Shown here: positions 6,863 to 20,214 of the stretch, in pieces
Numbering within the stretch: position 1 is the first letter of the stretch
Layout of the letters: the number at the start of each line of letters is the position of its first letter
Assembly: GCA_017560125.1 (NCBI GenBank)
Contig: JAFYOS010000032.1
Location: 62,001-126,000, forward strand
Length of the DNA stretch: 64,000 nt
Direction: 5' to 3'
Source: Bacteroidaceae bacterium
GTDB taxonomy: Bacteria; Bacteroidota; Bacteroidia; Bacteroidales; Bacteroidaceae
Notes under the pieces: model-generated
What the model saw: the letters and a program-made list of their open reading frames with translations, nothing else
What the model was told of the DNA's origin: nothing
Database searches by the model: none
Translations under genes and position numbers: made by a program

Positions 6863-8017
6863 ATGAAAAAGACAACAAAAAACCTTTTGGGTATTGCCTT
6901 TGCCGCAATAGCGCTATGCTCATGCGGTGGCCAGAAGCAACAGGAGTGCACAATGACCGAGTCGGGTCTGAACCCTGAAAAATTCGTTCAGGTATTCGAC
7001 GGCAAACAGACTGCGCTCTACACACTCACCAACAAGAACGGCGTTGAAGTATGCATCACCAACCTCGGTGGACGCATCGCATCAATCATGGTTCCCGACA
7101 AGAACGGTGTTAAGAAAGACATTGTTCTCGGATTTGACAACGCAAACGACTACAAAAACATATCTTCGGACTTTGGTGCATGCATCGGCCGCTATGCCAA
7201 CCGCATCAACCAGGGTAAAATTACCGTTGAGGGCGTTGAATACCAGTTGCCCCAGAACAACTTCGGCCACTGTCTTCACGGAGGTCCCGAGGGATGGCAG
7301 TACAAGGTATTCGATGTAGAGCAGGTAACAGAGAACACACTCGCATTGGTACTCAACTCACCCGATGGCGACGCCAATTTCCCCGGTAACGTAGTTGCAA
7401 AGGTAAAATACACACTCACCGACGACAACGCTATCGACATCGCTTACGAGGCTACAACAGACAAGACAACAGTCATCAACATGACCAACCACTCATACTT
7501 CAACCTCACAGGCGACGCATCGAAGCCCATCACCGACTGTTTGCTCACCATCAACGCCGACAACTACACACCCGTTGACAGCACATTCATGACAACAGGC
7601 GAGATTGTACCCGTTGAGAACACACCCATGGATTTCCGCGCAGCAAAAGCAATTGGCGCCGAGATTAACAACTACGATTTCGTGCAGTTGAAGAACGGTA
7701 ACGGTTACGACCACAACTGGGTGCTCAACACAGCTGGCGACATCAACCAAGTTGCAGCCAAGGTTGTATGCCCCGAGACAGGTATCACACTCGAGGTTTA
7801 CACCGACGAGCCCGGCATTCAGATCTACACAGGTAACTTCCTCGATGGCACAGTAACAGGTAAGAACGGCATCGCATATCCCCAGCGTTCGGCTATCTGC
7901 CTCGAGACACAGAAATACCCCGACACCCCCAACAAGCCCGAGTGGCCTTCGGCTACACTCAAGCCCGGTGAGAAATACACAAGCCACTGTATTTTCAAGT
8001 TCGGTGTAGAAAAATAA
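6863..8017 (+). CDS. galM: Aldose 1-epimerase (mutarotase), lipoprotein
   Basis: The 384-residue protein has a lipoprotein signal peptide ending at Cys21 (AIALCSC), so it should be anchored in the envelope rather than cytosolic. The GalM fold follows: GRYANRINQGK, the FGHCLHGG loop, the catalytic-His motif MTNHSYFNLTG, and the C-terminal AICLETQKYPDTPN that carries the catalytic Glu. It interconverts alpha and beta anomers of hexoses, here probably on sugars released from glycans in the periplasm. Transketolase begins 85 bases downstream on the same strand with no hairpin between, so the two may be co-transcribed. Confidence 0.93.
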   Translation: MKKTTKNLLGIAFAAIALCSCGGQKQQECTMTESGLNPEKFVQVFDGKQTALYTLTNKNGVEVCITNLGGRIASIMVPDKNGVKKDIVLGFDNANDYKNISSDFGACIGRYANRINQGKITVEGVEYQLPQNNFGHCLHGGPEGWQYKVFDVEQVTENTLALVLNSPDGDANFPGNVVAKVKYTLTDDNAIDIAYEATTDKTTVINMTNHSYFNLTGDASKPITDCLLTINADNYTPVDSTFMTTGEIVPVENTPMDFRAAKAIGAEINNYDFVQLKNGNGYDHNWVLNTAGDINQVAAKVVCPETGITLEVYTDEPGIQIYTGNFLDGTVTGKNGIAYPQRSAICLETQKYPDTPNKPEWPSATLKPGEKYTSHCIFKFGVEK

Positions 8018-8102
8018 CAAAATATAGCAGATAAAAGCAACAGACCAGTTGTTATAAACCATATAAAACAAACATTTATACAATATATATAATTGTAAAG
8101 AC

Positions 8103-16593: not shown

Positions 16594-16633
16594 TTCGCAT
16601 ATCCGACCTAAATTCCATAAATTTGTAACTTTG
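16594..16633 (+). promoter_or_regulatory. Promoter of the hydrolase-Mur ligase-Ddl unit
   Basis: TTCG (16594-16597), 20 bases, TAAATTTG (16618-16625), immediately followed by a second box TAACTTTG (16626-16633). The position favours ATG at 16652 as the start. Confidence 0.6.
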
Positions 16634-16651: not shown

Positions 16652-17410
16652 ATGATATACAAATACGACGACAAAGAGGTTTTTATAGAGGTTACAGGCA
16701 AAGGCGAAGCAGTCCTTCTGCTACACGGTTGGGGATGTACACACGACATTTTCAAATCGTTGGCATCGCTACTTGCCACACAATACAGGGTCTATTCATT
16801 CGATTTTCCGGGCTTCGGAGCATCGCAGGAACCCGACGAAGTGTGGGGAGTGGAAGAATACACACGCCTTGTGGAAAAATTTGTCAAGGACAACGCCATT
16901 GAATCGCCGGCACTCGTAGGCCACTCATTTGGCGGCCGCGTATCGCTGCTCTACTCATCGCGCAACAGCGTATCGAAGGTCGTATTGGTCGATGCTGCCG
17001 GCATAAAGCCCAAGCGTTCGTGGAAATACTACTACAAGGTATATACATACAAATGTGCTAAATGGCTTTGCAACACATTGTTGCCCAAAGAGAAAGCCGA
17101 AGCAGCCTTGAACCGTTTCCGCAAGAATGCCGGCTCGTCCGACTACAACAACGCATCGCCCATGATGCGCCGCATACTGTCGAAGGTGGTTAACGAGGAT
17201 TTGAAACATGTGATGCCACTGATAAAAGCACCTGTACTGCTCTTTTGGGGCGACCGCGACACAGCTACACCGCTCGCCGACGCCAAATACATGGAGCAAC
17301 ACATAAAGGACGCCGGTCTGGTGATAGCCCACGGCACCGGCCATTTCTCGTTCCTCGATAACCCCGGTCTTTTTGCATCGGTAATGAAAAGTTTCTTCAA
17401 AATAAAATAG
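16652..17410 (+). CDS. Alpha/beta hydrolase
   Basis: About 252 residues with the classic fold: the oxyanion loop LLLHGWGCTHDIF, the nucleophile elbow LVGHSFGGR (Ser), a catalytic Asp near FWGDRDTATPL and His in HGTGHFSFLDNP. There is no signal peptide, so it is cytoplasmic. It is followed after 4 bases by a membrane Mur ligase and then a D-Ala-D-Ala ligase-like gene. In this setting it might hydrolyse or transacylate an amino-acid or cell-wall intermediate, but that is inference. The start at 16652 is chosen because 16631 lies within the predicted promoter. Confidence 0.88.
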   Translation: MIYKYDDKEVFIEVTGKGEAVLLLHGWGCTHDIFKSLASLLATQYRVYSFDFPGFGASQEPDEVWGVEEYTRLVEKFVKDNAIESPALVGHSFGGRVSLLYSSRNSVSKVVLVDAAGIKPKRSWKYYYKVYTYKCAKWLCNTLLPKEKAEAALNRFRKNAGSSDYNNASPMMRRILSKVVNEDLKHVMPLIKAPVLLFWGDRDTATPLADAKYMEQHIKDAGLVIAHGTGHFSFLDNPGLFASVMKSFFKIK

Positions 17411-17414
17411 AACA

Positions 17415-18974
17415 ATGGATATATTCTCAATCATATACACAGTAGCATGCGTAATCTGCTGCATCGTGACATTGCGCTACGACATGCAGATGTTCCAACT
17501 GAGTTCATACCGCTACGACCGCTATTTTCGCTGGTGGTATCCCAAGAACATACTCACCCACCGCAAATGGTGGCCCATAGTCATGCTCGCATGCCTGTTT
17601 AGCAAATGGCTCATGCCGGTAGCAGCCGCAATGGCCGCCCTGAGCATATACAAGGAGCTTACCGAAAAATACAAAACCCCCATTGTATTCACCATGAGGG
17701 TGAAGCGCCTGTACACCACTGCCATCGTCATGATGACAATCGCAATGGCTATCGTAGCCCTTACGGGCGGTAGCGCCGCTCTGCCCGTCGCTGCAGCCAC
17801 CACCCTGCTCCTGTCGAACATACTGGTGCTGCTTGCAAATGTGATCAACACCCCCATAGAGAAAAGCATCACACGCTGGTACTACAACGACGCCAAGCGA
17901 ATAATAGAATCGCACAAAGGGCTCACAATCATCGGCATCACCGGCAGCTTCGGCAAGACAAGCACCAAGAACTATCTTGCCAGCGTGCTTTCCGAAAAAT
18001 ACAACGTGCTCGTCACACCCGGTAATTTCAACACCCTGTTGGGCGTGGTGCGCACCATACGCGAGCAGCTGCGTCCCTACCACCAGGTATTCATTGTGGA
18101 GATGGGCGCCAAGCAGCCCAACGACATCAAGGAGATATGCGACCTTGTGCACCCACAGATAGGCATACTCACCGCCGTTGGCGAAATGCACCTCGAAACA
18201 TTCAAAAGCTTCGAGAACATACAGAAAACGAAATTCGAGCTCATAGATTCACTGCCACAGAACGGCTTGGCCGTACTGAACTACGATTCGGCAGGAATAA
18301 GCAGCTACAAAAACATTAAATCGAATTGCGAAATCCTCACATACGGTGTGGAGAACAGCGCCGCCATGCTGAAGGCTAAGAACATTGAATATGGAGCAAG
18401 CGGAGTAGGCTTCACATACAGCGACGGCAATGGCGAGGAGCAATACACAAGCCGCCTGCTCGGCAGCGGCAACCTGCTGAACATATTGGCCTCTATAGCA
18501 GTAGCCAACAGACTGCAGGTGCCCGTAAGCAAACAGAAGGCCTCCATTTCGCGTCTGCAACCGGTGGAACACCGCCTGTCGTTACGTCGCGCCAATGGCA
18601 TCTCGGTGCTCGACGACGCATACAATTCGAACCCCACAGGCGCTGCCATGGCAATAGATGTGCTCAAAGGCTTTGCAGTGGGCAGCGATAACAAACGCAT
18701 AATCATAACCCCCGGATTCGTGGAAATGGGCGCAAGGCAATTCGAAGCCAACAAGCAACTGGGACGCCTGATAGCCCAAGGATGCGACTACGCGATAGTG
18801 GTTAACGAGACCAACCGCCAGGCCATAAAAAGCGGCATCGAAGAAGGCGGCATGAACGAGAACAAAGTATATTTGGCGGCGAACCTCACAGACGCACACG
18901 CCCACCTTGCCACAATATTGAAAGCAGGCGACGTGGTGCTGTACGAAAACGACCTTCCCGACAATTTCAAATAG
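17415..18974 (+). CDS. Membrane-anchored Mur ligase (MurF-like)
   Basis: The 519-residue protein begins with about 150 residues holding several hydrophobic segments instead of the MurF substrate-binding domain. The ATP-binding Mur ligase core follows: P-loop GITGSFGKTSTKNYLASVL, EMGAKQPNDIKEI, ILTAVGEMHLETF, and the ligase C-terminal domain with LDDAYNSNPTGAAMAIDVL. The closest known relative by motif is MurF, which adds D-Ala-D-Ala to UDP-MurNAc-tripeptide. Loss of the N-terminal domain means the acceptor may be different, perhaps lipid-linked. It sits between an alpha/beta hydrolase (4 bases) and a Ddl-like gene (28 bases). Confidence 0.85.
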   Translation: MDIFSIIYTVACVICCIVTLRYDMQMFQLSSYRYDRYFRWWYPKNILTHRKWWPIVMLACLFSKWLMPVAAAMAALSIYKELTEKYKTPIVFTMRVKRLYTTAIVMMTIAMAIVALTGGSAALPVAAATTLLLSNILVLLANVINTPIEKSITRWYYNDAKRIIESHKGLTIIGITGSFGKTSTKNYLASVLSEKYNVLVTPGNFNTLLGVVRTIREQLRPYHQVFIVEMGAKQPNDIKEICDLVHPQIGILTAVGEMHLETFKSFENIQKTKFELIDSLPQNGLAVLNYDSAGISSYKNIKSNCEILTYGVENSAAMLKAKNIEYGASGVGFTYSDGNGEEQYTSRLLGSGNLLNILASIAVANRLQVPVSKQKASISRLQPVEHRLSLRRANGISVLDDAYNSNPTGAAMAIDVLKGFAVGSDNKRIIITPGFVEMGARQFEANKQLGRLIAQGCDYAIVVNETNRQAIKSGIEEGGMNENKVYLAANLTDAHAHLATILKAGDVVLYENDLPDNFK

Positions 18975-19002
18975 TAACAAACAACAAAAACATAGAAAAA
19001 CG

Positions 19003-20214
19003 ATGAAAACAAATGTAGGCGTAGTATTCGGCGGACGTTCTGTCGAAAACGAAATTTCGGTTGTTACAGCCAACCAGATGATGCACGCAATGGACTCCGA
19101 AAAGTACAATATAATTCCTATATATATAACCAAAAGCGGAAAATGGTACAGCGGCGACGCACTGATGAACGTCGATAACTACCGCGACACTAAGAAACTG
19201 CTTGCACAGTGCGAGGAGGTATATGTACGCCCCGTATATGGCGACACCAACCTCTATCGTTGCAACAAGGGATTGTTCCAGAGCGCAGTCGTTGCCAAGC
19301 TCGATGTAGTAGTTCCCACCCTTCACGGAACAAACTGCGAGGACGGAACATTCCAGGGTGTCATGGAATTTGCCGGCATCCCCTATGCAGGTTGCAACAC
19401 ACTTGCATCGGCCAACGGCATGGACAAAATAACCATGAAGATGATACTCAAGGAGTGCGGCATCCCCGTAATCGACTACTGCTGGTTCTCGGACAAAGAG
19501 TGGTTCGACCGTCAGGAGGCTGTGATGGAGAAGATCGAGAGCAAGCTCGGCTTCCCCGTAATCGTAAAACCCGCCAACCTCGGTTCGAGCGTCGGCATCA
19601 AGGCTGCACACAACAAGGAAGAGCTCGTAGATGCCATTGAGAACGCCATACAGTTCACAAACAGAGTAATCATAGAAAAATATGTTCAGAAACTGAAGGA
19701 GGTCAACTGCGCCGTACTCGGCAACTACTACGACTGCGAAGCATCGGTGTGCGAGGTGCCCGTACGCAGTGGCGAAATCCTCTCATATCAGGACAAATAC
19801 ATGAACGGTGGCGGCAAGCAGTCGCAAGGTATGCAATCGACAGTGCGCGAGATACCCGCCAACCTGCCCGAGGCAACCACCAAGTTCATACAGAACGCAG
19901 CATGCGAAACCTTCCGCGCACTATCATGCGACGGAGTATCGCGCATCGACTTCATCATCGACGAAGCAACCGACGAGATATTCGTAAACGAGATTAACAC
20001 CATCCCCGGCTCGCTGTCGTTCTACCTGTGGGAGTACAGCAACATCAATTTCTGCACATTGGTAGATAAGCTCATCGAGATAGCAATACGCCGCCAGCAG
20101 GACGCCAACAAAAAAGTTGTGAACTACGGCGACAACATTTTCTCGGGCAAAACCGTTCAAGGAGCAAAGATGGGTAAAATGGGTGGCAAAATGGGAGGCA
20201 AGTTCGGCAAATAA
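19003..20214 (+). CDS. D-alanine--D-alanine ligase family protein (ATP-grasp)
   Basis: The 403-residue ATP-grasp protein starts VGVVFGGRSVENEISVVTAN, where the usual GGxSxEHxVS His is Asn, has TLHGTNCEDGTFQG in place of the usual HGxxGEDG loop, then FPVIVKPANLGSSVGIKAA (ATP grasp) and FVNEINTIPGSLSFYLWEY (metal ligands). It joins D-alanine to D-alanine or a related acid. It is about 80-100 residues longer than classic Ddl and ends in a Gly/Lys/Met-rich tail (GAKMGKMGGKMGGKFGK). Its pairing with a MurF-like enzyme suggests a D-Ala-D-X branch distinct from the housekeeping enzymes, which are presumably elsewhere. Confidence 0.88.
   Translation: MKTNVGVVFGGRSVENEISVVTANQMMHAMDSEKYNIIPIYITKSGKWYSGDALMNVDNYRDTKKLLAQCEEVYVRPVYGDTNLYRCNKGLFQSAVVAKLDVVVPTLHGTNCEDGTFQGVMEFAGIPYAGCNTLASANGMDKITMKMILKECGIPVIDYCWFSDKEWFDRQEAVMEKIESKLGFPVIVKPANLGSSVGIKAAHNKEELVDAIENAIQFTNRVIIEKYVQKLKEVNCAVLGNYYDCEASVCEVPVRSGEILSYQDKYMNGGGKQSQGMQSTVREIPANLPEATTKFIQNAACETFRALSCDGVSRIDFIIDEATDEIFVNEINTIPGSLSFYLWEYSNINFCTLVDKLIEIAIRRQQDANKKVVNYGDNIFSGKTVQGAKMGKMGGKMGGKFGK

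Follow-up and report, generated by a model that had tools for sequence, protein, structure and literature searches.

MurF is commonly taken to be an essential, conserved step of cell wall synthesis and a drug target, and in the textbook order of peptidoglycan formation it acts before MraY. The lipid II amidotransferase MurT/GatD, which contains a relative of the Mur ligases, uses lipid I and lipid II and none of the uridine diphosphate (UDP)-linked precursors (PMC6085368). The genes murE and murF are usually placed in tandem (PMC11915815). For the present study a stretch of 64,000 nucleotides from a Bacteroidaceae bacterium (assembly GCA_017560125.1, contig JAFYOS010000032.1, positions 62,001 to 126,000), in the following called the window, was analyzed. 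It contains three consecutive genes for an alpha/beta hydrolase, a Mur ligase and a D-alanine--D-alanine ligase (Ddl; Table 1). The term TM-Mur is used for a Mur ligase with hydrophobic segments where the domain binding UDP-N-acetylmuramic acid (UDP-MurNAc) would stand. Among the titles and abstracts listed in full-text literature searches, which mostly did not cover subscription papers, none names a membrane MurF. The original prediction for this locus saw in the trio a parallel to the housekeeping genes murF and ddl. We arrived at a different conclusion, namely that the trio replaces these genes rather than running beside them. With a probability of roughly 0.85, TM-Mur is the MurF of these bacteria and the cassette is a swapped version of the housekeeping branch that supplies D-alanyl-D-alanine (D-Ala-D-Ala) in peptidoglycan synthesis. 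Ddl and TM-Mur very probably constitute this branch in the window organism and in many Bacteroidota, with no parallel pathway involved.

No stand-alone MurF was found in the window's genome; the other Mur-type genes were MurC, MurD, MurE, FolC (367 bits, cut-off 162.65) and a fusion of MurF with alanine racemase (MurF-Alr, PRK11930). A search of the genome with PF07478 yielded two Ddl genes, the one of the window and one on contig C18 of 5,221 bases. Positions 1-2125 of the latter contig (G000, L010) hold the end of a second TM-Mur (68% identical) together with the second Ddl (81%). Because the assembly is given with a contamination of 6.41%, this pair was taken as probably contributed by a congener. 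The genome therefore has no kind of Ddl other than that of the window, and a pathway parallel to separate ddl and murF genes was ruled out, since the genome contains neither. The original prediction had itself named this absence as the finding that would speak against it. Of its expectation that the trio is conserved beside separate murF and ddl genes, only the conservation, described below, was borne out. Among 31 genomes of the genus TM-Mur was listed in 29 and a close Ddl in 28, which rules out the window trio as contamination. MurF over the cut-off was found in 0 of the 31 genomes and the MurF-Alr fusion in 30, the window's genome included. The remaining Ddl hits in the genus were weak (best E 9.8e-7) and mostly came from frames of about 1,080 amino acids, which by their size we take to be probably carbamoyl-phosphate synthase. 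Neither TM-Mur nor Ddl was seen in G019 and G028, which are 87% and 85% complete.

Hardly any genome has both TM-Mur and canonical MurF. In a sample of 61 genomes of the phylum 13 contained TM-Mur (E <1e-90), and MurF over the cut-off was found in exactly the other 48. The order sample of 74 genomes contained five with TM-Mur, none of them with a stand-alone MurF, while 67 of the 69 others possessed one, counting G155, for which it was assembled from neighboring matches. A third sample comprised 80 genomes of another class, that of genome G033, at a guess the Rhodothermia. Using a threshold of 1e-52, a single MurF-type match was obtained in each of 79 genomes, 66 of the TM-Mur type (match beginning at model position 59-74) and 13 full-length MurF (frames of 431-485 amino acids), with no genome having both and one, G240, having neither. 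The 66 were assigned by the start of the match, and the hydrophobic segments were checked only for members of the aligned set (A4). At the same threshold no MurF-Alr fusion was seen in these 66 genomes. Of the genomes that hold the 80 loci closest to the window's TM-Mur, termed the named loci below, 50 were examined, and 49 of these were without a stand-alone MurF at 1e-52; four other MurF matches over the cut-off in these genomes were fusions. Genomes with TM-Mur only include single-contig assemblies which are 99-100% complete (G033, G060, G217).

Analyzing the domains of TM-Mur, Pfam matches were obtained for Mur_ligase_M (140 bits, residues 175-364) and Mur_ligase_C (46 bits), with nothing before residue 175. 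By hydropathy, the first 168 residues contain about four hydrophobic segments, and the predicted ligase with such segments in place of the UDP-binding domain was thereby confirmed. All 66 aligned TM-Mur proteins, window included, have 2 to 5 hydrophobic segments N-terminal of the P-loop (four in 38 of them), whereas 22 of 23 soluble Mur ligase controls have none before the P-loop and the remaining one has a single segment. No match above the cut-off was found in Pfam or NCBIfam for the N-terminal part of the window protein or for the isolated N-terminal parts of four TM-Mur proteins. The best NCBIfam match of the window protein is murF (TIGR01143, UDP-N-acetylmuramoyl-tripeptide--D-alanyl-D-alanine ligase) with 236.9 bits, beginning at model position 72 and staying under the cut-off of 288.6. 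All 66 aligned proteins match the same model, and among the 11 families listed in their NCBIfam scan, all known Mur ligase models, none is specific for this form. The motifs of the window protein are the P-loop TGSFGKTS, HLETFK, EHR, DDAYNSNP, TPGFVEMG and the C-terminal ENDLPD; of the catalytic motifs, the P-loop, DDAYNSNP and the arginine of EHR are retained. ENDLPD occurs in 66 of 66 aligned TM-Mur proteins, in contrast to a KGS motif in the compared MurF rows, and a TPG[FM]VE[LM]G-type motif in 65 of 66, in contrast to LGDMxELG. TM-Mur thus shares with MurF the middle ATPase and C-terminal ligase domains, the tree clan and a Ddl companion, and takes its place in genomes, but deviates in these two motifs, in the missing N-terminal domain with its hydrophobic substitute and in the score. 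A MurT-type amidotransferase was ruled out, as Pfam gives Mur_ligase_C and no DUF1727, the mark of MurT, in TM-Mur. None of the three trio genes encodes a glutaminase; GatD, the partner of MurT, was not searched elsewhere in the genome.

Two phylogenetic trees were calculated. In the first, built from 44 catalytic regions with a single MurC row as a long branch, TM-Mur formed one clade (100/100), and MurF and MurF-Alr stood on its side of a branch (100/98) with MurE, MurD and MurC on the other. For the second tree eight MurF of the class of G033 were added and MurC was omitted. Here, TM-Mur was one clade (100/100) inside the MurF clan (100/99), apart from MurE and MurD, and the eight soluble MurF were its nearest relatives, with a support of 91/85 that lies below the starred level. 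The 14 TM-Mur proteins of Bacteroidia formed one group (100/100) nested in the other TM-Mur. Canonical MurF was not a single clade in either tree. The position of the eight soluble MurF and the single nested group of Bacteroidia suggest a soluble MurF as the origin of TM-Mur and a single arrival of TM-Mur in the Bacteroidia, by descent or by transfer.

The dcw cluster of the window's genome was read over ten genes with the best matches penicillin-binding protein, MurE, MraY, MurD, FtsW, MurG, MurC, none, FtsA and FtsZ; MurF was not among them, and some of the best matches are under their cut-offs. The order FtsI-MurE-MraY-MurD-FtsW-MurG, again without MurF, was found in six TM-Mur genomes outside the Bacteroidia (L145, L148, L149, L150, L161, L163). 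The MurF genomes L146, L147, L153 and L154, four from other classes, all have MurF between MurE and MraY. Within the class of G033, ddl adjoins murF outside the dcw cluster in 6 of 8 MurF genomes examined (L185, L186, L190, L191, L192, L193), which looks as though both genes had moved together or been reacquired jointly. This arrangement fits an interchangeability of the ddl-murF pair with TM-Mur and its Ddl.

In the mechanism which we propose, Ddl would join two D-alanines. TM-Mur, lacking the UDP-MurNAc-binding N-domain and anchored by about four hydrophobic segments, would do the job of MurF, as its replacement of MurF in genomes indicates, and join the dipeptide to the stem tripeptide at the membrane's inner face. 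The C-terminal tail of Ddl would dock on TM-Mur or on the membrane. As acceptor we lean toward the lipid I/II-linked tripeptide, because the uridine-binding domain is missing and MurT provides a precedent. The complete sequence of events would then be that MraY transfers UDP-MurNAc-tripeptide and TM-Mur, fed by the docked Ddl, adds D-Ala-D-Ala to lipid I/II, so that in a large part of the Bacteroidota MraY would act ahead of the MurF step, contrary to the textbook sequence; for this whole chain we put the chances slightly under even. Of the original prediction that a D-Ala-D-X group is made and attached to a lipid-linked acceptor, the first part is probable, with the Lys-Tyr pair kept in Ddl, and the acceptor is possible. 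The parallel drawn with MurT/GatD concerns a Mur ligase relative that acts on lipid-linked and not on UDP-linked precursors (PMC6085368); MurT, however, adds ammonia and not a dipeptide, and the trio is without a glutaminase.

An alternative that is compatible with TM-Mur as the MurF of these bacteria concerns the substrate. TM-Mur might act on soluble UDP-MurNAc-tripeptide, with the membrane part placing it by MraY and MurG for channelling. This would keep the textbook order of reactions and agrees with the apparent derivation of TM-Mur from a soluble MurF, with MraY passing its cut-off in all 17 TM-Mur genomes searched for it, and with MurG in the window's genome. It leaves the loss of the uridine-binding domain of Mur ligases to be accounted for, and the substrate choice of MurT/GatD noted above (PMC6085368) points the other way. 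We regard a soluble substrate as a real possibility, although a tentative one that stays below even odds. A side observation on MraY is that in 5 of 5 Bacteroidia TM-Mur genomes the model match falls into two pieces with a break near model positions 111-135 (e.g., L012 6793-8046).

The MurF-Alr fusion, a homologue of MurF that many genomes carry in addition to TM-Mur, offers another explanation. Its MurF half might be the real MurF in these Bacteroidia, with TM-Mur and Ddl modifying lipid II or another envelope lipid. In the window's genome this half gives a full-length match (E 2.2e-80) and has the P-loop GSDGKT, and two genomes of the order sample, G131 and G149, show the fusion only. However, the 66 TM-Mur-type genomes of the class of G033 and G139 have TM-Mur and neither fusion nor MurF at 1e-52, and at the same threshold no MurF half was seen in 23 of the 50 named trio genomes, with only a partial half in 3 more. 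YNxNP, kept in TM-Mur, is absent from both fusions compared. Since this motif is absent and the MurF half goes unseen in 23 of 50 genomes, the half may be decaying or repurposed. Furthermore, most Bacteroidia with a stand-alone MurF keep the fusion too (second MurF-type match in 61/67 of the order sample, fusion in 12/14 of the phylum sample), and thus the fusion did not make MurF dispensable. Overall, MurF activity of the fusion in place of TM-Mur is improbable. In comparison to TM-Mur, the fusion keeps the N-domain, is without hydrophobic N-terminal segments, forms its own clade and coexists with canonical MurF. In one of the fusions (L011 3377-5857, minus strand) the MurF half reads NSNSDT in place of YNxNP. 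Unusually long MurF-Alr frames were observed on contig C45 of G200 (1,019 codons) and contig C4 of G205 (1,170 codons) compared to the usual 830, and an extra domain is possible.

The Ddl of the window resembles other Ddl in both Pfam domains (Dala_Dala_lig_C 177 bits, Dala_Dala_lig_N 114 bits) and passes the curated cut-offs of NF002528 (330.3 bits versus 262) and TIGR01205 (283.6 versus 245.65). Its Lys265-Tyr266 pair, which was invariant in the alignment of 35 Ddl, is typical of D-Ala-D-Ala ligases. The unusual asparagine and cysteine noted in the Ddl motifs are indeed present, as Asn16 and Cys112. Both recur in the alignment of 35 Ddl, which includes that of the window: position 16 is occupied by His in 22 sequences and by Asn in 13, and position 112 by Gly in 25, by Cys in 8 and by Val in 2. 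Cys112 is also found outside the window's genus. The window type differs from other Ddl by forming its own clade in the TM-Mur genomes compared and by a motif of the C-terminal tail. All 35 Ddl compared from TM-Mur genomes carry the pattern [STND][YF]xxN[IL][FL], mostly followed by a Gly/Lys-rich end, and none of the 17 from MurF genomes does. Many Ddl of the window type additionally have a Gly/Lys-rich stretch after the Lys-Tyr pair. The tail might serve in docking to a partner or to the membrane. In the Ddl tree the proteins of 17 TM-Mur genomes formed one clade (100/100) with those of 17 MurF genomes outside. The clade takes in five genes of the other class that are unlinked to TM-Mur and the Ddl of Dysgonomonas sp. 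25, a genome that also has MurF. As a side observation, five Ddl of the other class (L126, L128, L141, L143, L144) have GENG at the site of the Ddl motif GEDG.

A D-Ala-D-lactate or D-Ala-D-serine ending in the style of glycopeptide resistance is very improbable for the product of the trio: the match of Ddl to VanG-type models and the co-encoded hydrolase would agree with it, but among the best 25 of 55 families the van models stay far below their cut-offs (best VanG, 241.7 bits versus 495), the invariant Lys-Tyr pair is that of a D-Ala-D-Ala ligase, and the window Ddl is the only kind in its genome and not an extra. By the van cut-offs and the Lys-Tyr pair a glycopeptide-resistance ligase was ruled out. 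Just as improbable is a presence-absence pattern produced by incomplete genomes or by a profile blind to divergent MurF. Many of the genomes are drafts and G131, G149 and G240 have neither form, but single-contig genomes of 99-100% completeness with TM-Mur only exist, and within one class the same profile that gives the TM-Mur-type matches also detects MurF of full length.

The trio itself is widely conserved. A scan of GTDB contigs gave at least 509 TM-Mur relatives, and all counts for named loci refer to the closest 80 of these. By their record titles, these 80 include Bacteroidaceae, Alistipes, Rikenellaceae, Muribaculaceae, Barnesiella (Barnesiella sp. An55 in L109), Tannerella, Dysgonomonas and Mucilaginibacter (Mucilaginibacter flavidus RT5R15 in L111); one relative is titled as a Pseudoflavonifractor metagenome-assembled genome, for which mislabelling is suspected. 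All 80 named loci have the hydrolase gene 5' of TM-Mur and in the same orientation, with a gap of at most 30 bases in 73, and Ddl lies 3' in 77. In the window the three genes stand head to tail with gaps of 4 and 28 bases, as described originally; the medians in the named loci are 3 bases (hydrolase to TM-Mur) and 28 bases (TM-Mur to Ddl). Two of the three loci without a downstream Ddl end 246 (L046) and 466 bases (L113) past TM-Mur, and the third, L114, has 6,000 bases there with no Ddl. Two loci carry insertions between TM-Mur and Ddl: about 3.7 kb of other genes, one DNA methylase-like by eye, in L056 (7552-11219), and a 314-codon gene in L106 of Dysgonomonas sp. 25 (7119-8060; spacing of 1.1 kb). 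In the other class no conserved theme was seen among ten neighbors of TM-Mur.

Several observations weigh against TM-Mur as the MurF of these bacteria and against the cassette as a fixed unit. Dysgonomonas sp. 25 (L106, G198), the sole exception among the 50 genomes examined for the named loci, combines TM-Mur with the fusion and a canonical MurF. Absence from a draft genome is no proof of loss, as seen with G131 and G149, which carry only the fusion, and with G240, which gave no match. The MurF half of the fusion in the window's genome is largely intact. The TIGR01143 cut-off was passed by 0 of the 66 TM-Mur-type matches of the class of G033, and because of scores under the murF cut-off and the clade-specific motifs the substrate of TM-Mur could differ from that of MurF. 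The claim of a lipid-stage reaction, built on the absence of a domain and on analogy, is plausible. Linkage is looser in more distant relatives. Among four additional TM-Mur loci from the order sample, L139 and L140 hold the trio, and the stretches of L135 and L137 show TM-Mur with neither neighbor. In the class of G033, four of eight loci have the hydrolase adjacent to TM-Mur or within about 3 kb of it, and none of the eight has Ddl so placed. Six TM-Mur genomes of the phylum sample (G033, G038, G048, G060, G080, G088) and G141 gave an additional Ddl-like match of lower score; three such second sequences placed in the Ddl tree group apart. Finally, murF is absent from the dcw cluster (L189) of G043, which is one of the MurF genomes in the class of G033 and has the gene elsewhere; this weakens the loss of murF from this cluster as a mark of TM-Mur.

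Should TM-Mur indeed do the work of MurF, a membrane-embedded form without the UDP-binding domain would be in use across many Bacteroidota, among them 66 of the 80 genomes sampled in one class and numerous gut Bacteroidales. Inhibitors aimed at that domain of MurF would then not affect them, the annotation profile for MurF would overlook their enzyme, and the order of the pathway steps would become a directly testable question. Ddl and MurF would be a case of two enzymes swapped jointly. As a membrane-embedded TM-Mur with its own Ddl appears to stand in for the soluble MurF, a late step of wall peptide synthesis may occur at the membrane.

Table 1. Features of the trio locus in the window.
Feature	Position	Strand	Basis
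Possible Bacteroidetes-type -7 element 5' of the trio, TAACTTTG	16626-16633	+	by-eye reading
Alpha/beta hydrolase gene, 252 amino acids	16652-17410	+	sequence; PF00561/PF12697 match
TM-Mur gene, membrane-embedded MurF-type ligase, 519 amino acids	17415-18974	+	Mur_ligase_M and Mur_ligase_C
TM-Mur N-terminal part, about 4 hydrophobic segments (residues ~3-20, 54-78, 103-121, 124-144)	17421-17846	+	family-averaged hydropathy
TM-Mur catalytic and C-terminal ligase domains, residues 168-519	17916-18971	+	motif comparison
Ddl gene, D-alanine--D-alanine ligase, 403 amino acids	19003-20214	+	NF002528, TIGR01205
Ddl omega-loop Lys265-Tyr266	19795-19800	+	invariant in 35/35 aligned Ddl
Ddl C-terminal tail, NYGDNIF, then Gly/Lys/Met-rich end	20119-20211	+	tail motif alignment

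A plasmid search for TM-Mur matched 96 records, none covering at least 80% of the query; in the 20 of the 96 that were listed every match starts at query residue 153 or beyond. In the DNA upstream of the trio, TAACTTTG resembles the Bacteroidetes -7 element; a convincing -33 box was not seen by eye at the customary distance from it. The hydrolase matches PF00561 with 102 bits, a domain found in 42 of 42 homologues, and the triad Ser92-Asp203-His231 is invariant in the 42 aligned sequences. No named function passed its NCBIfam cut-off among the best 25 of 26 families (best lipase_V, 133 versus 300). As read from the window, the protein holds a basic, aromatic stretch, IKPKRSWKYYYKVYTYK, which at a guess forms a membrane-facing lid; the hydrolase is a frequent accessory of the cassette, perhaps a membrane-facing esterase.

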